From: a virus
DNA: 26,782 nucleotides
Virus record (IMG/VR): IMGVR_UViG_3300034375_004677
Coordinates: 1 to 26,782 of that record
Strand: one strand, 5' to 3'
Position numbers and translations under genes: made by a program. The notes beneath the pieces were generated by a model that saw only the letters and a list, made by a program, of their open reading frames with translations, made no database searches and was not told the DNA's origin. Positions 8,175 through 26,782 of the stretch are shown one piece after another (position 1 is the first letter of the stretch; every line of letters begins with the position of its first letter).

Positions 8175-8318
8175 ATGAGACCCACCGCCTTGCTCGTAGC
8201 AGCCTTACTCACAGCCGGATTCACAACTTGGTATCTGACTAGGATAAAGGATGAACTGTTCGATGACATCGACATCAAGTTTAGGCGCGGAGATTTAGGA
8301 GGATGGGGCGATGATTGA
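8175..8318 (+). CDS. Small membrane protein, 47 residues
   Basis: ATG at 8175 with GAGGAG 7 bases upstream. One hydrophobic segment spans about residues 4-20 (TALLVAALLTAGFTTWYL), followed by a charged cytoplasmic-type tail (TRIKDELFDDIDIKFRRGD). The N-terminal Met-Arg then hydrophobic run fits a signal anchor with the tail either side. It overlaps the next gene by 8 bases. It is the second tiny membrane protein in this block (the other is at 5412). No homolog recognised. Confidence 0.55.
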   Translation: MRPTALLVAALLTAGFTTWYLTRIKDELFDDIDIKFRRGDLGGWGDD

Positions 8319-8814
8319 CGATGAAAGCGAGCCGGGTTCATGGAAACTAGCCCTAGAGTTAGGTCCGTGGCGCAGGATCGGTAAGAACACCTACACAAAC
8401 GAGAAGAATGAAATGTCCGAGACAAAGATACGACTACTGAATAAAACGAGTGAACTGTTCGACCTATCGGTGACGGAGTTATCCGGAAACGCTAGATATA
8501 AATACCTTATGCCTGCGCGATTTGCGATGTACAAAACTTTGCGTGAGCGAGGCTGGAGCTACCCGCGTATCGGTAAGCTGTTCGGCGGTAAGGATCACTC
8601 GACAATCATTCACGGCGTTCGTCGTGCGGACTATATGATTGCGAAAGACGCAGACTATGCGGCCAAGGTGAAGGCGTTGACGGAGACACGGCTCACGCCC
8701 ACTGCGTTGACGGAGGAAGAAGTCGAAGAACAACTACTCGCAATGCGTAAGAAGAACGGCATCCCTGAGCTAGAGGAGGATGACGATTGGTTGGAGGATT
8801 TGATACATGACTGA
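8311..8814 (+). CDS. DnaA domain IV-like DNA-binding protein
   Basis: A 167-residue protein with a DnaA C-terminal helix-turn-helix (Bac_DnaA_C) at about residues 46-112. It has LFDLSVTEL, a conserved PARFAMYKTLRE helix and the DnaA signature GGKDHSTIIHG at 92-102 (DnaA itself has GGRDHTTVLHA), which reads DnaA-box DNA. There is no AAA+ domain, so it cannot form an ATP-driven initiator filament alone. The rest is charged, with an acidic C-terminus ending EEDDDWLEDLIHD. AGGAGGA at 8297-8303 supports the ATG at 8311. Likely roles are binding an origin or host DnaA boxes, or acting as a transcription factor; which one cannot be told from sequence. Confidence 0.85.
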   Translation: MIDDESEPGSWKLALELGPWRRIGKNTYTNEKNEMSETKIRLLNKTSELFDLSVTELSGNARYKYLMPARFAMYKTLRERGWSYPRIGKLFGGKDHSTIIHGVRRADYMIAKDADYAAKVKALTETRLTPTALTEEEVEEQLLAMRKKNGIPELEEDDDWLEDLIHD

Positions 8815-17660: not shown

Positions 17661-20600
17661 ATCGATACTCTTTCTCTATTGCACGGTATAGCCGGTTGAA
17701 TCGAGCCTGCTCCCGGGAGGCTTCTTCCATATACCTATTACGGATTCTACGCTTAACATCGGGATCGCTATTACGCTCGAGCATCTCTTTGCGCTCCTTA
17801 TAGATATCGTCTAGCCGGTCCTCAGTGAGTTTATAGGCATCTAACAACGTCTTATCAAACAGGTGCGGCGCATCTGCATAGTGGGCGTTGAGTATATCTA
17901 GCGCAGTCTCGACAGTAGAGTTTTCGCCCCTGTAGTTTTTATATACAATCTCCATGGCTGGTTTGCCTTCAATCGGAGTGCCCTTACCAGTCAACTTATA
18001 ATAGTCGTTCATTGGGCCGTACTCAGAACCCTTACCCACAAACGAGTTAAGCACAGGTATCTGCTGGTGCAGGGGTTTTTCCGGGTCTATACCTTTGGCT
18101 AGGGTTTGGTCGGCAATACGGCCCAAGCCGCCGGTGTATTGGGTAAAAACATATCTCCATATTTCCGGCTGCGCATCGAGATACCCCGAAGTATACTTGC
18201 TGCCGAAAGAAGCCTCATTCATAAATGATGCGAATTTTTTATACGCTTCGGGGGTTCCCGGCTTGCCTAGCGCAGACCTAATGCGGTTATCAAATTCGGA
18301 TTGTGACCGGTATATAGGGGAGTTGAAGTAGTTGCGGTTAAAGATAAAAACATCGGTAAGGGGTTTGGCCATGCTTGGCATAAGCGATTGTGCGGCGCTA
18401 GGTACGTCCTCTACCTCGCCCCGTATTGGGCTTGCCGCGTTTAAAGCCCCTGCGACCACCTTGCCTAAAGCATCCGTGATTAAGACCCCTGCTTCTTCCG
18501 GGCTTTTAATTACGCCCAGAGCAGTTTCGGTTGTCACTTCACCTAAGTATTTGGGTAGGGCTAACAAGAACCCCATAGGTATGGCAACGTAGTCATTAGC
18601 GCCGGTGCCATAGAACATGACTAGTCGCGTCTGTTTAATATATGACGGGACCTGTTGGTAATTGGTCCGCCCATCGCCGTCGTCGTCGTTATCTCCAAAC
18701 AGACTATTCCACATAGCGCTAAGTACGCCCAGATAGAATATACGTCTCAGGTATTTAGCGCCGCCCTTTGTACCCATGCGGACTAATTTACGGGCGCTTT
18801 CGACGGTCGGGCTGTAAAAAAACAAAAGCGTATCTAGTATGGGAGCCCATTCGCCCCGGCGGGTCAGGTTAAGCGACGAATCCAACGCTAACCGTGCGGC
18901 GTCTTCCTTACTAAGGTTATTTTCTATAGCTGCTAGGTACGTAGCTAGTCGCGCATTAAGGTCGATAGTTTGGGCGGTGGCGTCTAGCGCCTTGGCCGTA
19001 CCTTTGCGTAGGTTATTAACCCCAGCGCCTAGCTTCCTAGCCCCGCCTTTACGCATGTTTGCGTAGGTTTCCAGTTCAGCTTTAGCTTCTTGCGCTATCG
19101 TTTCCGCAGAAGCAACCATCGCGTGCCCAACGGCACCGCCCTCCTCTATCATCTCTTGCAGAGCAGTCATAAACCGCGCCTCGTCCGGCGTCTGCGGCGG
19201 GCGACCCGTGATAAAGTTTTTAATTGCACCTGTAAGAGGAGAGACAGCCGGACTCTGGACGTATTTTTCTGTAAACGGGACACGCCGTTTCCCTAGCTGG
19301 GGACTTAAGTACTTGAGCATATCTTCAGCAATCTTCGTGCCTTTAGCGGGACCGCCTTCCATGTTTTGAGCCACATATGCAGTCTTAATTGCATCCTGCG
19401 TATCACGAAAGTACGCCGTACCGTAGAGGTATATAGGGCTATACCTCGTCAACATTGACTTAAGTCCGTTGGCTCTATTCTGAACAAATTGAAACCACTT
19501 GCTGGCTTGCGCGGGGGTCATGTTACTAAAGACCCGCTTCATCGCATCCCCAGCGTCTGTGGGCGCAAACTCAATGTAATATGGAGTCCCGTCTTTCTTT
19601 ACTACTAACACATTGCCCTGCTGCACTTCGCGCTGGATATTAGCATTTACTGGCGTACCATCAGGATACGCAAGGTCTTTGGACGGCTTAATCATGGTCC
19701 GCGAATCAAGGTCCGTATATACCCGCGCTATGTTCGCGTGGCCCTCGGGGTCATCTAAAATATTGTCCAGAAAAGTCTGCCCTACCCTATTCTTTTCTGC
19801 ATACATCACCACCTGCTGGGCATCTGCAAACAGGTTGAAAATTGGGTTTAGGGGTATCGTGGTACGACCTTCAACCTGAAAGAACTCGGACTTTCTAGTA
19901 CCTAGCTGACGCATTGCCGCCTTGAGTTTTTTATCGCCGTTCCGCTCTACGTCTTCTTTATACCTACCGAAACCGTCCAACTCCGATTCGCCGAGAAGTT
20001 GCATATCGCCATCTGTCGCGTACCCTTTGAGAGGAGTATAAAACGGTTGTTGTTCCAGTGCGGCATCGGCTTGCTGCTGAGTCAGTAGTCCAGAATCTAC
20101 GCGTAACTTCAGCATGTGGCGGACTAGTTTGTCGTGAAGCTTAGCTATCTTTTGCAGCTTAGGCATTAGCTCGCCATTTTGAGACTCCGCCAAGAATTGC
20201 ATTACCACTTCCGCTTCAGCATTAGTAAGGCCCGAACCGCCGTCCGGCATCGTAGCGTTGCGGATAGCTACCAAAGCGTTGCGGTCTTTCGCCGACCTAG
20301 CCCATAAAAACAGCCCTACATCGTCTGGATTTACATCCAACTCTTTCATCAGGTCAATAATTGGGCGTAGGAATCTTCGCTGAAGCTCCATCTGATTGCC
20401 AGTCTTGCGCGACTCAAAAAGTTCAAATTTGCGGTCCAGCGACATATTAGATGGCAGAGACTCAATGGATACTCCGTACGATCTGGCTAGCGCCTGCGCA
20501 TAATCTACCGCATCTTGGTATTTATAATTTAATTTTCTGGTAATTTTGGACTTCTTGCTCGTGGACCAGTTAATTATATCGGCGATTGCCCCGACCATTT

Positions 20601-23600
20601 GCGGCTTCGATACATTGGGGTTATCGGGCATACGGGATTCTAGTGACGGCTCGGCGGGCATATCCTCTTCTCTTCTGCCCACTTGACGAGGTGCCCCACG
20701 TTGCCCCGGTTGCCCTACACCCATTGCTCCCATAGCCCCTAAAGCTAATGCAGGAGCAGCTTCTTCGGTTACCGCTGTTTCAGGAGCAGCTTCTTCGGTT
20801 ACCGCTACTTCAGGCGCGGCTTCTTCGGTTACCGCTGTTTCAGGAGCAGTCAGTGACGCCATGGTCGATGCCAAGCGCGAAGCAACAAGCTGCGGCAGAG
20901 GAGTGAGGGCAGTAGATTCTGCAAGGACGGCATCTAGATTAGTCTGCTCGTCGGGTACAATCGCGACTACCGCATTGGCAAACTCGTCTATATTGGGCGC
21001 AATGTTCTCGGTAAAAAATTCCGGGCTAGTGACAATACAGCCCATACTTTGCTTACTCTGTGCGGCATCCCCCGACTTAAGCGCCGCTGCTCTCTGCGCG
21101 CTAGTAACTGTATTGCCGTGAAGACCTACAAAAACACCAGTGCCGCGTCGCTCGCCAATACCAACCCTTCTAGTCTTTCCGGGAGACCTTAGCGCTAGAA
21201 CTTTTTGTCCGGGGTAATCGGGGTTATCTACTACGCGGAATGTAAACACGCCCGACGGAGTTACTCGCTCCCCCCGACCTAAATCTTCGTAGCCACGTGC
21301 ATCCAAACGCTCCGCTGAAAGCGTATCACCAGCGTCTCTTCCATATATGGCTATGGTGTCCTGTTGGAAAACTCCATCCTTGCCGAAGATTAGCAGTCTG
21401 CCGTTAGGTTTATCGGCAATCATGAACGAGCGGTTAGACGCTACTGCCGCAGGTGCCAGCGCCTCGTATGTAGCTTGCGCAGCAGGAGACATTACAGCTA
21501 GAATTTCGGCAGGGATGAACTTTTGGTTAGTTACCGCAAACTCTGCCGATGGCTGCGCCGCTTCTAAATTTACTGCAAAATTAGCGGGCGTGTCTACAGT
21601 TAGCGCCGCAGGTGAAAGTACGACAGCACCTGCCAGCACGGATTTTTGTATACGCCGTATGATTCCCCGGATAGCTTTAGCTACAGAATTTATGCCGTTA
21701 GTTACGGCATTGGAAAAGTCCTGTATAAACTGGCGCTTTGCTACTTCGTCGTAAGTCTTACGTCCGTAGTGTTTGGCTAGCCGCTGTTTTTCGTTTTCGT
21801 TTAGCTTGCTGTGTACAGCTTCTTCCTGAACCTCGGGAGCCTGAGGTACTTCTTCGGGCGCAGCTTCTTCGGGCGCAGCTTCTTCTTGAACCTCAGGTGT
21901 CGGAGGAGCACGCCGTTTAGCCGGTGCGTTACGCTCAACTTCTACAGGCGCAGCTTCTTCGGGCGCAGCTTCTTCTTGAACCTCAGGTGTCGGAGGTGCG
22001 TTACGCTCAACCCATCCCGGCAGCGCTTCGAGGGCTTCTTCTTTATTTGTGCCCAACATATCGGGCATACCCATAGCTGCTAGATCAGTCCTGTTTACAC
22101 CTACGGACGCAGGCTCAATGTACCACACGGGGTTACTGGGACCGAACTGGTCGGTATCCCGGTAAATTCTAGCGACCCTGCCATCACTAAGCTCTACTTC
22201 ATAGTAGGTACCCTCGTCCGCAGTACGACGCTGTTTAATGGCTGGTTTGCCTTCAATGGACTTAACCGACAGTTTTTTCGGGGCAGTTTCTTCCTGAACC
22301 TCAGGCGCAGCTTCTTCAGTCAGTGCAGGCTGAGGTGCTGTGACTCCTCCAGTATTGTCGCTAACGTCAGGGCTACTAGCACCCACTCCCCCTCCGAAAG
22401 GCAGTTCAAGTTGTTCGTTAGTTTGCGATTGGACGGCAGGTCTTCCACTAGATGCTGGAACGCTAGGCTCCACTCTTCCGATGTTAGGTGTCCCAGCGTC
22501 AGGGGTAGTAGCGGCATCTGCATCCTGTTCCCTCTCTGCTTGCGTGCGTTCTTGACGCTCAGGGATTCGAGCTTCAAGTTCTGCTACCCCACTAAGCGCA
22601 GCTAACTCCTCGTTTGTGGGCGCGATACCCGCTAGTTCAGGGATTGCCTCAAGCCTAGCGTTAAACTCTCGTACTTTATCAGACATGGGTACGGTGTCGT
22701 CAAGCATAACAGAGTTGAGTATAGCCTGACGCTGCTTACTCATACGCCCTTCAGCGCCGAAGACTTCTTCCGCTACGAGCTGCCCGTACACCATGCGGGC
22801 TTCTTCTTCGGTTAAACTAGGTCTGCCCTCTTGGCTTAGTGCAGCGTCGATTGCAGCTGCCTTCTGGTTGTTGGGTAGCTCGTTAGATACAAGGATAGAT
22901 TCGATAATAGCGAATCGCTCAAGGGCGACATCGCGCTGACGCCGCGCCTCAGTAGATAAGTCAGCGGTCTCTAGCTGGGACTCGAAGCGCAGTATATCTC
23001 GAAGTGCTAACGCCTCTTCCGTTGTTATACCGCCATACCCGCTATCTCGCAGCTTAGTGTCAAACCAAGAAAATATACCATACGGATTATCGGGGTTATA
23101 CGGCTGGGTTCTAGCCTCATCCAACAGCGCCTTTCGTTCAGCACGTTCCTCGGCTTTGAGGCGCAAAGACTCCTCTAGCGCTGCCTTGCTTGCTTCCCGC
23201 GCAAGCTGCGCACTTTCTTCCGTGGGGGTGACTGTGCCTACCTCTACCCCCGGCTGCGCTTGAGATTTACCATAAGCTACTTGGTAGTCAGTTATTGCAT
23301 TACGGGCTTCTTCAAGCACTGCTTGCATGGCTTTATCGCCGGGGGACGCAGTAGTTTTGGCTTTTTTACCTCTTGTGCCAGCAAAGCGAGACTCCAAAGT
23401 AGATATGTAGTTTAAAGCCTCCTGCGGGTTACCAAAGGCTATAGCGTTAGCTACTTTACGGGTTACACCGGTAATATATCTATCCAAGGCTCCGGCATCA
23501 GCGCCCTCTACATTTGAAGCCGCAGCGTCCAAGCGCGTACGTAGAACATCTACAGAAAAATCTTCTGGGGTAGCGAACGCACGGTACCCGGACTCTGGCA

Positions 23601-25110
23601 CAATGCGAGAATCTATTTCGTCAAGGCTCATTCTACCAAGACGCCCATCGGCACGGCGATACAAAACCATATCCCCGTCCATATTCAAGACTTCAACCTG
23701 CTCGATTACTTGCCGCGATGGGTCCTTCAGGTCCCGGACTCTTAGGTTAAAGGTAACGGGGGCTTCTGACTCGTCGCGGGCAGCTTCCAGTTCCTCGCCA
23801 ACGGCAGTGTTAATGCTATTTAGTTTTCGTGTTGCGGCACCGAAAGCTTCCGCACCTCCTCTTACGGTCTTACCTACAAGGCCGCCAAGCAAAGCACTTT
23901 CGCCTACCCCCTCAAAGAATTGCTGGCGCTCGTCGTATGCACCGCGCTGCAAGCTGTTTTGTAGCAGCTGAGATGCACTCTCTTGTACTGCTTCCGGTAC
24001 AAAACCGCGCGTAAACATCCGACCTATCGCCTTAGATTCGATCTGGTCTACCGCTTCTTTTGTAACCTGCCTTACGCCCGCTGCTAGCGCGCTTTGGTTT
24101 GCCGCGCTTTTTATGACATCGTCTAAGCGTCTCTGTATGGCCGCCTTCACTGGCCCCGGAGCTTTATTTAAAAGCGTGTTTATGGTCACTGTTTCGAGCA
24201 GACCGATGGCACCACCCCCTGCCGTTATAAGTCTACGGAGGACAGGGCTTAACTTCTCACCTGTTTCTTTTTCAAAAGCGTCCATGCGGTCGCGGGCTTC
24301 AGAAGCACCCATACCCGAACCTAGAGCAGCTTGGGTAACCGTAGTACCTACGCCAATAGCTTTCGCGGTTTTATCTAGTTTATTAGCGGTGGCTATGGCC
24401 TTAAGTGAAGCGCCAGCAATAGACGTGGTTAGGAAGGGTACCACGCTACCAAGACCTTCGCCGAAGGTAGAAAGCCCCCTAGCAGTCGAATCGAATTGAA
24501 GCGCTTCTTTAGTTCGTTCTGATTGTTCTAAGCCCAAAGCGCTAATTAAAGATTCACCGCCAGCCTCTATAGCGCGGCCAAACCTTTCGCCACCTTCTCC
24601 AAAAATACCCGCCGTAGCACCTAGGTCTGCAACCCCGCGAATAGCTCCCCGAGGAATGCCAGCTAATGGAACACCTGCTGTCTCTAGGGCAGATAGCTGA
24701 GCAGCTGGGCGGCCCTTCTCGGCTAGGAACTGCTCGCGCTTTTGTAGGTCCTCAAGCTCTCGTCTGGCTCGGTCTATTTTAGTATCGTACTGCGCCGTTA
24801 CACCCTGATACTGACTGACGTTACCGAAAAACCCTTCAAAGCGCGGACCTAAACGACTAGCAGCTTCCTCCTCTGCCGCAGCCCTAGCCGCCTCGGCCTC
24901 CGCTATCTGTTGCGTGTATTTCGCTCTGCCACTTTCGATGGCGGCGCGCTCTGTATTTATTTCTGAGGGGGTAACGCTAGGTGCAGTGGATGCAGGTGTA
25001 GGGGCTGTAGCCCCATAAGCCTCGCCTAGCATGCGCAGTTGTTCGGGAGTAACATCATCTGGTACGTTAGTAACAATCGTACCGTCCGGCATCCTAATAT
25101 TTATAGGCAT
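17659..25110 (-). CDS. Giant polyvalent virion protein with YkuD-like and LPD38-like domains
   Basis: A 2483-residue minus-strand protein. ATG 25108-25110 has AGAGG upstream on its strand. It opens with INIRMPDGTIVTNVPDDVTP, a common head of large phage structural proteins. Residues about 60-110 look coiled-coil; Ala/Gly-rich hydrophobic segments lie near 240-320. Long Pro/Glu/Ala-rich linkers (about 900-960, 1030-1100, 1420-1455) separate folded parts. Between two of them is a YkuD L,D-transpeptidase-like domain (about 1255-1390): HGN with His1331 and SMGC with Cys1358; the usual HGC His is Met and the His-to-Cys gap is longer than usual. The C-terminal third has the LPD38-like order SPIYLYGTAYFRD (Arg1902, Asp1903), then LNLTRRGEW, and PMGF. 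Such proteins are typically packaged and injected with DNA. Probable peptidoglycan-acting ejection protein. Confidence 0.82.
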   Translation of the reverse strand: MPINIRMPDGTIVTNVPDDVTPEQLRMLGEAYGATAPTPASTAPSVTPSEINTERAAIESGRAKYTQQIAEAEAARAAAEEEAASRLGPRFEGFFGNVSQYQGVTAQYDTKIDRARRELEDLQKREQFLAEKGRPAAQLSALETAGVPLAGIPRGAIRGVADLGATAGIFGEGGERFGRAIEAGGESLISALGLEQSERTKEALQFDSTARGLSTFGEGLGSVVPFLTTSIAGASLKAIATANKLDKTAKAIGVGTTVTQAALGSGMGASEARDRMDAFEKETGEKLSPVLRRLITAGGGAIGLLETVTINTLLNKAPGPVKAAIQRRLDDVIKSAANQSALAAGVRQVTKEAVDQIESKAIGRMFTRGFVPEAVQESASQLLQNSLQRGAYDERQQFFEGVGESALLGGLVGKTVRGGAEAFGAATRKLNSINTAVGEELEAARDESEAPVTFNLRVRDLKDPSRQVIEQVEVLNMDGDMVLYRRADGRLGRMSLDEIDSRIVPESGYRAFATPEDFSVDVLRTRLDAAASNVEGADAGALDRYITGVTRKVANAIAFGNPQEALNYISTLESRFAGTRGKKAKTTASPGDKAMQAVLEEARNAITDYQVAYGKSQAQPGVEVGTVTPTEESAQLAREASKAALEESLRLKAEERAERKALLDEARTQPYNPDNPYGIFSWFDTKLRDSGYGGITTEEALALRDILRFESQLETADLSTEARRQRDVALERFAIIESILVSNELPNNQKAAAIDAALSQEGRPSLTEEEARMVYGQLVAEEVFGAEGRMSKQRQAILNSVMLDDTVPMSDKVREFNARLEAIPELAGIAPTNEELAALSGVAELEARIPERQERTQAEREQDADAATTPDAGTPNIGRVEPSVPASSGRPAVQSQTNEQLELPFGGGVGASSPDVSDNTGGVTAPQPALTEEAAPEVQEETAPKKLSVKSIEGKPAIKQRRTADEGTYYEVELSDGRVARIYRDTDQFGPSNPVWYIEPASVGVNRTDLAAMGMPDMLGTNKEEALEALPGWVERNAPPTPEVQEEAAPEEAAPVEVERNAPAKRRAPPTPEVQEEAAPEEAAPEEVPQAPEVQEEAVHSKLNENEKQRLAKHYGRKTYDEVAKRQFIQDFSNAVTNGINSVAKAIRGIIRRIQKSVLAGAVVLSPAALTVDTPANFAVNLEAAQPSAEFAVTNQKFIPAEILAVMSPAAQATYEALAPAAVASNRSFMIADKPNGRLLIFGKDGVFQQDTIAIYGRDAGDTLSAERLDARGYEDLGRGERVTPSGVFTFRVVDNPDYPGQKVLALRSPGKTRRVGIGERRGTGVFVGLHGNTVTSAQRAAALKSGDAAQSKQSMGCIVTSPEFFTENIAPNIDEFANAVVAIVPDEQTNLDAVLAESTALTPLPQLVASRLASTMASLTAPETAVTEEAAPEVAVTEEAAPETAVTEEAAPALALGAMGAMGVGQPGQRGAPRQVGRREEDMPAEPSLESRMPDNPNVSKPQMVGAIADIINWSTSKKSKITRKLNYKYQDAVDYAQALARSYGVSIESLPSNMSLDRKFELFESRKTGNQMELQRRFLRPIIDLMKELDVNPDDVGLFLWARSAKDRNALVAIRNATMPDGGSGLTNAEAEVVMQFLAESQNGELMPKLQKIAKLHDKLVRHMLKLRVDSGLLTQQQADAALEQQPFYTPLKGYATDGDMQLLGESELDGFGRYKEDVERNGDKKLKAAMRQLGTRKSEFFQVEGRTTIPLNPIFNLFADAQQVVMYAEKNRVGQTFLDNILDDPEGHANIARVYTDLDSRTMIKPSKDLAYPDGTPVNANIQREVQQGNVLVVKKDGTPYYIEFAPTDAGDAMKRVFSNMTPAQASKWFQFVQNRANGLKSMLTRYSPIYLYGTAYFRDTQDAIKTAYVAQNMEGGPAKGTKIAEDMLKYLSPQLGKRRVPFTEKYVQSPAVSPLTGAIKNFITGRPPQTPDEARFMTALQEMIEEGGAVGHAMVASAETIAQEAKAELETYANMRKGGARKLGAGVNNLRKGTAKALDATAQTIDLNARLATYLAAIENNLSKEDAARLALDSSLNLTRRGEWAPILDTLLFFYSPTVESARKLVRMGTKGGAKYLRRIFYLGVLSAMWNSLFGDNDDDGDGRTNYQQVPSYIKQTRLVMFYGTGANDYVAIPMGFLLALPKYLGEVTTETALGVIKSPEEAGVLITDALGKVVAGALNAASPIRGEVEDVPSAAQSLMPSMAKPLTDVFIFNRNYFNSPIYRSQSEFDNRIRSALGKPGTPEAYKKFASFMNEASFGSKYTSGYLDAQPEIWRYVFTQYTGGLGRIADQTLAKGIDPEKPLHQQIPVLNSFVGKGSEYGPMNDYYKLTGKGTPIEGKPAMEIVYKNYRGENSTVETALDILNAHYADAPHLFDKTLLDAYKLTEDRLDDIYKERKEMLERNSDPDVKRRIRNRYMEEASREQARFNRLYRAIEKEYR
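20751..20849 (-). repeat. 30-bp tandem repeat in the giant gene
   Basis: Three near-identical 30-base units (20751-20780, 20781-20810, 20811-20840) and a 9-base partial fourth. On the coding strand each encodes TAVTEEAAPE with one V/T swap in the middle unit. They form a flexible acidic linker just after the YkuD-like domain. Confidence 0.9.
21857..22011 (-). repeat. Duplicated Pro/Glu/Ala linker in the giant gene
   Basis: A 50-base sequence is repeated exactly at 21857-21906 and 21947-21996. Each copy is followed by GGTGCGTTACGCTCAAC (21923-21939 and 21995-22011), with 16 extra bases before the first of these. On the coding strand they encode VERNAP and PTPEVQEEAAPEEAAP-type repeats. The pattern looks like slippage or unequal recombination that lengthened a flexible hinge. 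Confidence 0.88.
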
Positions 25111-25114
25111 CAGA

Positions 25115-26407
25115 CTACCTCTGTTTTTGGGGGCCGAATTGCTTCATAAAGGCGGCAAAGTCTACCGTTCGGGTACCAGTGGCTCCGCTACCGCCCCCAT
25201 ATAGCTGTGATTCTATTTGGGTTATCTTAGCCTTAGCAGTGTCTATGATGTTTTGCTGGTTAGTAATTTTGTCTTCGTCTTGACGCCAACTCCACTTATC
25301 CTTCTCGTTATCAATCTTGAATTGCGCATCAACTATTTGCCTATTTAAGTCTGTAATTTGCTCGGTTAATGCTGTCCGTTCCCCTGCCGACAGCCCTTTA
25401 TCTCCACCACTACCTCTACTAGCTGCCCCGATTCGCGCGCTCTCTAGGGTGGTGGCTCTGTCTCGCGCGTTCTCCAGAGCTTGGAACTCCTGCCTAGTCT
25501 CCGCCAGACGCACTTCGATTTCGGCCTGAGCCGCCTCGCTAGCTCCCCGACGCTTGGCTTCCGCGAGTTGTAGTTGTAGGCCATAGACTTCACGAGCCGT
25601 CCGGTTGCTCGCCTCTTCGAGTTCAGCGGAAGTCTTGAGGAGTTCCATCTCCTTAGCTTCCATCTCTTTTTTCGACTCTTGTATCTGCTTGCCGCCGCCT
25701 ACGAACCCACTAACGAGAGCCTCCATGGGTGACATACCCGGCTGTATCGACCCAAGACCTGCAAACAGGCCCGCTAGTTCTGCGCGCTTACGCTCCTTTT
25801 CAGGATCAAACCCGGCTCCTAACCGTGCTTTAAGTTTTTCTCTAGCTTCAGATTCGGTAGGCAATACGCCCTGTAGCTGCGCCCCAGCCGCATCTAAATC
25901 AAGCGCAGGATTGATCTGCGCAAGTAGCTCGGGAGGTATGCCCATAATTGTCTGCGGAGCAGCAGTGGTGCCGCCAACATTGTACCCAACAATACCGCCT
26001 GAAGCCATCTGAGCCGGAGCAAAGTCTAGGCCGCCAATACCGCCTTGTGCGGGAGGCATACCCTGCGGAGCGGGGGCACCCATCTGTGGACCCATCTGTG
26101 GACCCATTTGTGTAGGCATGGGAGATGCTGCTTGTGGCATAGCGCCAAGACCGCCGGTGGCTTGCGCCATCTCGGGAAACTCCTCCTGAAGCACGCTCGG
26201 CTGCTGCGCCGCCATGGCGTTGCGCTCAGCTACTACGCTATCTGAAAGGCGCTTAGCCAGAAGACCCTGAGTAACATTGATCTGCCCGTTCATGACGAGC
26301 TTCATGATATCCTGCGGGTTACCCTTAGTGCGGGCAACGATGTCAGGGATACTTAGATCGGCGGAACCCAGTCCTCGTTCGGTACGGTCAAAAGCAGTTT
26401 CAGCCAT
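25115..26407 (-). CDS. Virion-type coiled-coil protein, 430 residues
   Basis: Minus strand, ATG 26405-26407; its stop is 4 bases before the start of the giant gene, so they are cotranscribed. The N-terminus has DRTERGLGS and helical segments. Residues about 95-165 are Met/Gly/Pro/Gln-rich, including three GPQM repeats (12-base DNA repeat at 26079-26114), and carry ASGGIVGYNVGG, a motif I associate with phage structural proteins. Residues about 240-390 are mostly a long coiled coil (ESKKEMEAKEMELLKTSAE and later segments). No enzyme motif is seen. Position beside a giant ejection-type protein makes it a probable internal virion or tail protein. Confidence 0.72.
   Translation of the reverse strand: MAETAFDRTERGLGSADLSIPDIVARTKGNPQDIMKLVMNGQINVTQGLLAKRLSDSVVAERNAMAAQQPSVLQEEFPEMAQATGGLGAMPQAASPMPTQMGPQMGPQMGAPAPQGMPPAQGGIGGLDFAPAQMASGGIVGYNVGGTTAAPQTIMGIPPELLAQINPALDLDAAGAQLQGVLPTESEAREKLKARLGAGFDPEKERKRAELAGLFAGLGSIQPGMSPMEALVSGFVGGGKQIQESKKEMEAKEMELLKTSAELEEASNRTAREVYGLQLQLAEAKRRGASEAAQAEIEVRLAETRQEFQALENARDRATTLESARIGAASRGSGGDKGLSAGERTALTEQITDLNRQIVDAQFKIDNEKDKWSWRQDEDKITNQQNIIDTAKAKITQIESQLYGGGSGATGTRTVDFAAFMKQFGPQKQR
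26079..26114 (-). repeat. 12-bp tandem repeat encoding GPQM
   Basis: Two exact CCCATCTGTGGA units and one variant (CCCATTTGTGTA) in a row. On the coding strand they give T-Q-M-G-P-Q-M-G-P-Q-M-G in the 430-residue virion-type protein. Short repeats of this type vary in copy number between related phages. Confidence 0.85.
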
Positions 26408-26413
26408 AGCTAA

Positions 26414-26782
26414 TTATCCCATTATCTGCCCGGCAGCGAGGGTGCCGAGGCCGCCGGTGAGGTACGAGAGCGGGTTTGTCGGTTGTCTGTAGGTTATTTG
26501 CGAGGTCTGCGACCCGGCAGGAAGACCACGAATGACGTTGCTGTAGAAGCCGAGAGTCTCTTGCGGGTAATCGCGCTGACGTAGGAAGTCGGCATAGAAC
26601 TGGTCGAGGCGCTGTTGTTCAAGAGCCTGCGGTAGCCCCGCTGCCTGCTGCATCATATTCAGGCGCTGGATGTCCGCCTGCTGCTGATACTGGCCTAGGT
26701 TGCCAAGTGTTTGCGCCATCTGCCCGGCCTGAGCAAGACCAGCGAGACCCTGACTAGAACCAAACTGGCGAGATTGCTCTCC
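26414..26782 (-). CDS. C-terminal part of a virion-type protein, cut by the window edge
   Basis: The frame is open from the right edge through the first ATG (26717-26719): 21 more codons (starting GEQSRQFGSSQGLAG) precede it without a stop, so this ATG is probably internal. The visible 122 residues are rich in Gln, Leu, Ala and Tyr, with LPQALEQQRLDQFYADFLRQ and a C-terminal Gly/Leu segment (LSYLTGGLGTLAAGQIMG). This style is typical of internal or tail fibre-proximal phage proteins. Stop TAA at 26414-26416 is 6 bases from the next start. Confidence 0.7.
   Translation of the reverse strand, partial: GEQSRQFGSSQGLAGLAQAGQMAQTLGNLGQYQQQADIQRLNMMQQAAGLPQALEQQRLDQFYADFLRQRDYPQETLGFYSNVIRGLPAGSQTSQITYRQPTNPLSYLTGGLGTLAAGQIMG

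Follow-up and report, generated by a model that had tools for sequence, protein, structure and literature searches.

Results

Layout of the locus

The window, by which we mean the whole analysed stretch of 26,782 nucleotides (positions 1 to 26,782 of IMG/VR virus record IMGVR_UViG_3300034375_004677), encodes a giant protein with a YkuD or L,D-transpeptidase (LDT) domain near its middle and, directly upstream, the last two genes of the stretch (Table 1). Elsewhere in the window, a MoxR-like AAA ATPase gene (phrog_1297) adjoins a gene for a DUF2201 metallopeptidase-like/VWA protein, a chaperone-like pair (130-2479), and the replication region encodes a small protein with a DnaA C-terminal helix-turn-helix (8311-8814; Pfam Bac_DnaA_C, E 3.4e-12).

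Table 1. Features of the giant gene and its upstream neighbours, in window coordinates; rows refer to the 41-row alignment of YkuD domains.
Feature	Position	Strand	Evidence or remark
Giant (polyvalent) protein gene, 2483 aa	17659..25110	-	Uninterrupted single open frame; LPD38 present
LPD38, large polyvalent protein associated domain, residues 2150-2352	18055..18663	-	Pfam E 7.2e-27
Downstream EAP repeat linker, residues 1421-1454	20749..20850	-	
YkuD / L,D-transpeptidase domain, residues 1228-1403	20902..21429	-	Pfam, phage-only profile, AlphaFold2, VIA
Val1360 (Cys+2)	21031..21033	-	Asn in the other 40 rows
SMGC, residues 1355-1358, with Cys1358 as predicted nucleophile	21037..21048	-	S, G and C in 41/41 rows
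Arg1340, nine residues past His1331	21091..21093	-	Invariant, 41/41 rows
His1331, predicted catalytic base	21118..21120	-	Invariant, 41/41 rows
TPSG, the TPxG motif of YkuD domains	21250..21261	-	T and G in 41/41 rows, P in 40/41
Basic stretch and hydrophobic segment VLAGAVVLSPAALTV, residues 1141-1172, signal-peptide-like	21595..21690	-	55 aa before the YkuD domain
Upstream EAP-rich linkers, residues 1038-1099	21814..21999	-	
Stretch of the giant	23743..24459	-	phrog_2206 E 1.5e-6
430-aa protein directly upstream of the giant, in the position of an ejectosome tunnel protein	25115..26407	-	Same position, similar size (430-640 aa), in related loci
Partial DNA-ejection-like protein gene	26414..26782	-	phrog_4287 E 0.0017 on the window piece

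The gene that is cut off by the end of the window is present at full length in a near-identical contig (L003:658-1770), where its product matches phrog_4287 with an E of 1.7e-7. The 430-aa protein next to it gave no family match above noise. The order of an ejection or virion structural protein (phrog_4287/phrog_8003), a protein of 430-640 aa and a giant is kept in loci L003, L004, L009, L010, L016, L024, L011 and L046. The giant gene thus lies beside other ejection-protein genes, as expected of a gp16-like protein, in the near-identical contig as well as in relatives, and its product also has what characterizes polyvalent proteins, namely very large size (2483 aa), a multidomain build and an LPD domain (LPD38). 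Its N-terminal stretch resembles virion RNA polymerases. Between them, the 18 giants that we scanned carry LPD38, LPD39, LPD23, InPase, RadC, DarB-like and vRNAP-like parts, a mix that makes them polyvalent proteins as Iyer et al. (PMC5512222) use the term. The synteny with the DNA-ejection protein and the polyvalent domains suggest that the giant is probably packed in the phage particle and injected.

An SLT domain occurs in one and Phage_lysozyme in six of 18 YkuD-phage records, always in separate ORFs of 149-252 aa, which speaks for YkuD as usually the sole wall-acting domain that these searches recognise in the cassette. An endolysin-family match within the giant itself was found for one of the 18 giants scanned.

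A YkuD domain within the giant protein

A sequence-only reading of the window had proposed a YkuD-like domain between repeat linkers, and had named the Pfam profile and the predicted fold as checks. We confirm that residues 1228-1403 are a genuine YkuD domain. They score above the curated cut-off of Pfam YkuD (PF03734; 25.8 bits, E 1.8e-5, cut-off 23.4), and the flanking linkers are indeed EAP-rich. The span originally assigned to the domain, 20950-21360, was too short; a piece near those coordinates scores 20.8 bits, which is under the cut-off. When the entire 2483-aa protein is scanned with Pfam, PHROGs and NCBIfam, the YkuD domain is not detected. Routine annotation would therefore miss it, and the frequency of YkuD domains in phages is for this reason underestimated. 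A profile built from 40 other domains, with the window copy left out, gives the giant protein 104 bits (E 5.8e-32), as against a top score of 7.1 bits among 200 shuffled sequences, so that the match is not due to chance.

The predicted structure agrees with the assignment. An AlphaFold2 model from the 41-row alignment (pLDDT 84.9, pTM 0.82) superimposes in VIA-align on an LDT of M. smegmatis (4xvo) with Z 13.1 and an rmsd of 1.7 over 107 residues, and scores Z 12.8 with B. subtilis YkuD, 12.4 with Csd6 and 11.8-11.9 with LdtMt2. Among the VIA matches listed, 50 of 50 are L,D-transpeptidases or their carboxypeptidase kin. Foldseek against the PDB was borderline (8da2, E 1.5e-3, probability 0.99), and against the viral library BFVD it retrieved A0A6J5S7V6 (E 7.6e-16, TM 0.84, 30% identity). 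A sequence search of the PDB did not find a close solved relative; the NHL-repeat matches that the profile produced are short repeated hairpins and were discarded. An earlier AlphaFold2 model from 17 rows (pLDDT 64), with which Foldseek was uninformative, was replaced by the 41-row model.

Catalytic motif and divergence of the window copy

Seven residues are invariant in the 41 rows of alignment A6: Thr1284, Gly1287, His1331, Arg1340, Ser1355, Gly1357 and Cys1358. The His, the SMGC motif and the distance of 27 between His and Cys are as the sequence-only reading had described them, and the conservation of Cys1358, on which it had made the proposal depend, holds throughout. In the first two widening searches the conservation of His and Cys does not arise by construction, since their patterns contained neither residue; a later search used a pattern with SYGC, so that among its loci the conservation of Cys is partly by construction, and our claim rests on the two earlier searches.

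The textbook pattern H-x(15-18)-[ST]HGC-h-[NR], which does not define every member of the family, is not matched by the window domain, which has a spacing of 27, Met in place of His and Val at Cys+2. In the viral relatives GC is preceded by Tyr, Phe or Thr, and across cellular and viral relatives in the alignments by Y, F, T or L, but never by His. Nearly all relatives share a His-Cys spacing of 28-29, with 34 in L076, and the standalone LDTs of Comamonas, Variovorax and Sphingomonas have the same motif layout as the phage domains. Because phage and cellular relatives share this layout, Met and the long spacing are mostly traits of the subfamily and not marks of a dead enzyme; a dead enzyme can no longer be argued from these two features alone. 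The earlier doubt whether the site is a variant or dead is in this respect largely answered. What remains of it is Val1360, the only motif oddity peculiar to the window copy, and fast evolution. Of 27 near-invariant positions, 8 are changed in the window copy, the highest number in any row; its loop between His and Cys is two residues shorter than in relatives, and its branch in the tree is the longest (2.12, median 0.24). By these measures it is the most diverged, fastest-evolving member of the family. In the near-identical contig L003, the giant gene differs from that of the window at 3 of 7452 bases, all within the YkuD domain (R1308K, T1313I and one silent change, residues 1308-1313).

A recurrent family of giants

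Searching with residues 1131-1403 brought up distant relatives in three more viral contigs and in one Geobacteraceae MAG, and profile searches extended the set to about 40 domains, about 38 of which lie within open frames of roughly 1,400-4,700 aa, some of these frames ending at a contig edge. Two small frames (L083 and L086) group with cellular enzymes in the tree. Judged from these sequences, the YkuD module is a recurrent family with about 38 other giant phage proteins, and not a one-off. The initial reading had overlooked this recurrence, the hydrophobic segment at a fixed distance from the domain (see below), and the standing of the window copy as the fastest-evolving member, without Asn at Cys+2. 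In tblastn searches of 50,697 phage records and 72,556 plasmids the window domain retrieved nothing useful, whereas a canonical relative used as query did retrieve relatives. Among 297 genomes from the same phylum as the Geobacteraceae MAG, nothing matched except the MAG's own giant gene.

One relative lies on an E. coli record, pSTEC648_2 (CP061838.1, 60.5 kb; locus L087, 31573-55971), and is a 2318-aa giant with a YkuD domain. A GH104 gene adjoins this giant, so that YkuD is not the only wall enzyme there; holin and lysozyme are also present, and a DUF927 protein is encoded close to the giant, as in the window. The record looks like a phage-plasmid in its layout. Megablast with its giant against 5,426 complete E. 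coli genomes and the phage collection gave no match.

The earlier suggestion that the module is mobile is supported by the full-length relatives L004:9899-16588 and L005:3076-9843 (38% identity in the best segment), which are without YkuD, are absent from the reported matches of the window-free YkuD profile, and have a zincin-like HELIH stretch in the corresponding middle portion. In many YkuD giants both occur, with YkuD first and an HExxH stretch after it. Relatives of the C-terminal third of the window giant (17722-20424, residues 1563-2475) occur in phages of Vibrio, Burkholderia and Escherichia, at 22-27% identity; a Pfam scan of two of the Vibrio giants did not find YkuD.

A signal-like segment ahead of the domain

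All giants whose upstream sequence is long enough have a hydrophobic stretch 45-60 residues ahead of YkuD, and in nearly all of them it is preceded by net positive charge. The stretch belongs to the top 2% of windows in all giants, and is the single top window in 13 of 27 complete giants, including that of our window, where it is the most hydrophobic 15-mer in all 2483 residues. Its 19-residue hydropathy of 1.48 is nevertheless below the usual transmembrane threshold, and the hydrophobic segments of the giant, at 1158-1172, 2175 and 2209, have moderate scores. For L004 and L005, which are without YkuD, the top five hydrophobic windows include no mid-protein segment. Standalone cellular LDTs have a hydrophobic, signal-like N-terminal segment 30-59 residues ahead of the domain, and the homology between phage and cellular proteins seems to run slightly upstream of the domain (VVRAWVQETKDNQGQKYIIADK in L087, VAQWIHRTQDNQRLPYLLIDKR in L093). 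We infer that phages captured a whole secreted LDT, and that its upstream segment is still in use.

Discussion

From our data, the most likely role of the YkuD module of phage giants is to remodel the wall of the host in the course of infection. The fold, the conserved dyad, the family, the synteny and the hydrophobic segment are observed; from them we infer the location of the protein, the placement of its domain, its activity and the direction of the reaction. The model that we favor, to which we give an even chance, is that of a T7-gp16-like ejection protein with the LDT as its wall-acting module, periplasmic at entry. The giant would be an internal virion protein that is ejected in place of T7 gp16. 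The signal-like hydrophobic segment, the short pre-domain and the YkuD domain would form a cassette in the middle of the giant that amounts to a whole secreted-type L,D-transpeptidase. While the giant is being ejected, its hydrophobic segment would engage the inner membrane, and the YkuD domain would stay behind in the periplasm, facing the wall. His1331 would then activate Cys1358, which would form a thioester with a stem peptide at meso-DAP3. Transfer would be mainly to water, and hydrolysis after meso-DAP would trim stems and open the L,D bonds of cross-links, loosening the wall for the passage of the DNA tunnel. Several points speak against this model: canonical LDTs link rather than cut, L004 and L005 manage without YkuD, the window copy is strongly diverged, the E. 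coli giant has a GH104 gene beside it, one giant also matches an endolysin family, and the hydrophobic segment stays under the usual transmembrane threshold.

The main competitor is an active transpeptidase that links, and that re-seals the wall after injection, anchors the tunnel to meso-DAP or hardens the wall so as to keep out a second phage. We regard it as unlikely, although transpeptidation is the standard chemistry of LDTs, and LdtA/B/C, which anchor Lpp, provide a model for covalent anchoring of the tunnel to meso-DAP. The relatives of the window domain have Asn at Cys+2, as does LdtMt2, a 3,3-transpeptidase that is among the matches of the window model. Since LdtMt2 is a transpeptidase, Asn at Cys+2 cannot decide between cutting and linking. 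Against linking, DpaA-like hydrolases are marked by Ala or Asn at Cys+2, where E. coli-type transpeptidases have Arg (PMC8263019); the window has Val.

Next comes a weakened copy. The window domain could be catalytically weak or dead, a peptidoglycan-binding or structural module, while its relatives are active. We consider this rather improbable. The long branch, the two-residue deletion between His and Cys and the absence of the Asn, Asp and Tyr that relatives have near the nucleophile are in favor of decay, but His, Arg, Ser, Gly, Cys and TPxG have been retained despite fast change elsewhere, and Met before GC is unremarkable in a family that never has His there.

A bolder version of linking, which we regard as a long shot, takes the internal signal-like segment as a stop that parks the captured LDT in the periplasm, where the LDT fastens the DNA tunnel to the wall or re-seals the wall. 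If this holds, phages would have an injection channel that is covalently anchored or repairs itself, in contrast to the virion hydrolases known so far. It is very improbable that the domain acts in the host cytoplasm as a polyvalent effector on a non-wall substrate (as an isopeptidase or amidase that targets a protein of the host or the phage): polyvalent proteins do deliver many cytoplasmic effectors (PMC5512222), and giants of this family also bear InPase, RadC, DarB-like and other modules, but the closest cellular relatives found have a signal-like N-terminal segment, and the giants have kept a similar one.

For the favored model of an ejected, wall-cutting LDT, T7 gp16 is one of the closest parallels. 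Its wall hydrolase domain swaps between ejection proteins (PMC8954989). Likeness lies in the third place of the gene in the ejection cassette (gp14-gp15-gp16 order) and in a wall-acting domain within a very large ejection protein (PMC8954989). It does not rest on sequence homology, and gp16 has an N-terminal lytic transglycosylase that cleaves glycan, whereas YkuD acts on peptides and is located mid-protein. With the LPD38 polyvalent proteins (Iyer et al. 2017, PMC5512222), the giant shares LPD38, phage-type giant size and mosaic domains. For the wall, their survey names lysozyme, SpoIID-like and DD-peptidase domains, and the words YkuD and transpeptidase are absent from its text (PMC5512222). 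A0A6J5S7V6 from an uncultured Caudovirales phage, which has the same fold, is named "Large polyvalent protein associated domain-containing protein", without LDT annotation.

Other YkuD proteins share fold or chemistry with the module. The T6SS effector Tlde1a (LD-carboxypeptidase / LD-exchange) turns the LDT fold into a weapon on another cell's wall (PMC9638812), but it is a small secreted effector with the HGC His and a capping subdomain; the window domain, with SMGC and not SHGC and with a Pfam match to YkuD alone, falls outside Tlde1. DpaA (LdtF/YafK) is a YkuD member and a hydrolase with a residue other than Arg at Cys+2 (PMC8263019), and was a weak match of the first model (Z 3.2); it is, however, no close sequence relative of the window domain, and cuts the Lpp-DAP amide. 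LDTs from Comamonas, Variovorax and Sphingomonas (e.g. WP_318530293.1, annotated "L,D-transpeptidase") belong to the same subfamily as the phage domains and share with them the FxxxDK start, TTPAGRF, His-x28-Cys or nearly so, and ADNRISYGC[IV]NVP. They differ in being frames of 220-276 aa outside giants, and from the window copy also by its shorter loop, its Met and its Val. The same fold or subfamily occurs in phages outside giants, in Xanthomonas phage XacN1 ORF390, Stenotrophomonas phage DLP_5 and the YkuD endolysins of PhaLP, but as small standalone genes (~115 aa) or lysins and not as modules of ejection proteins. The two from cultured phages (L094 and L095; DLP_5 78133-78483 and XacN1 ORF390) are standalone LDTs of ~115 aa that belong to this subfamily and are mostly annotated as hypothetical.

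Most of the wall enzymes known from virions cleave amide bonds or glycan strands. With a conserved LDT module in giant ejection proteins, phage entry would gain a further wall chemistry, and a one-residue mutation would directly test whether the phage cuts, trims or re-links the wall during injection. Phage LDTs acting on a foreign wall could also be useful tools, since cross-links that depend on LDTs are important in beta-lactam tolerance. The LDT fold, wall enzymes in ejection proteins and polyvalent giants were all known before; as far as our searches of literature and databases show, which covered few subscription papers and preprints, an LDT within a giant ejection protein is a new combination of them.
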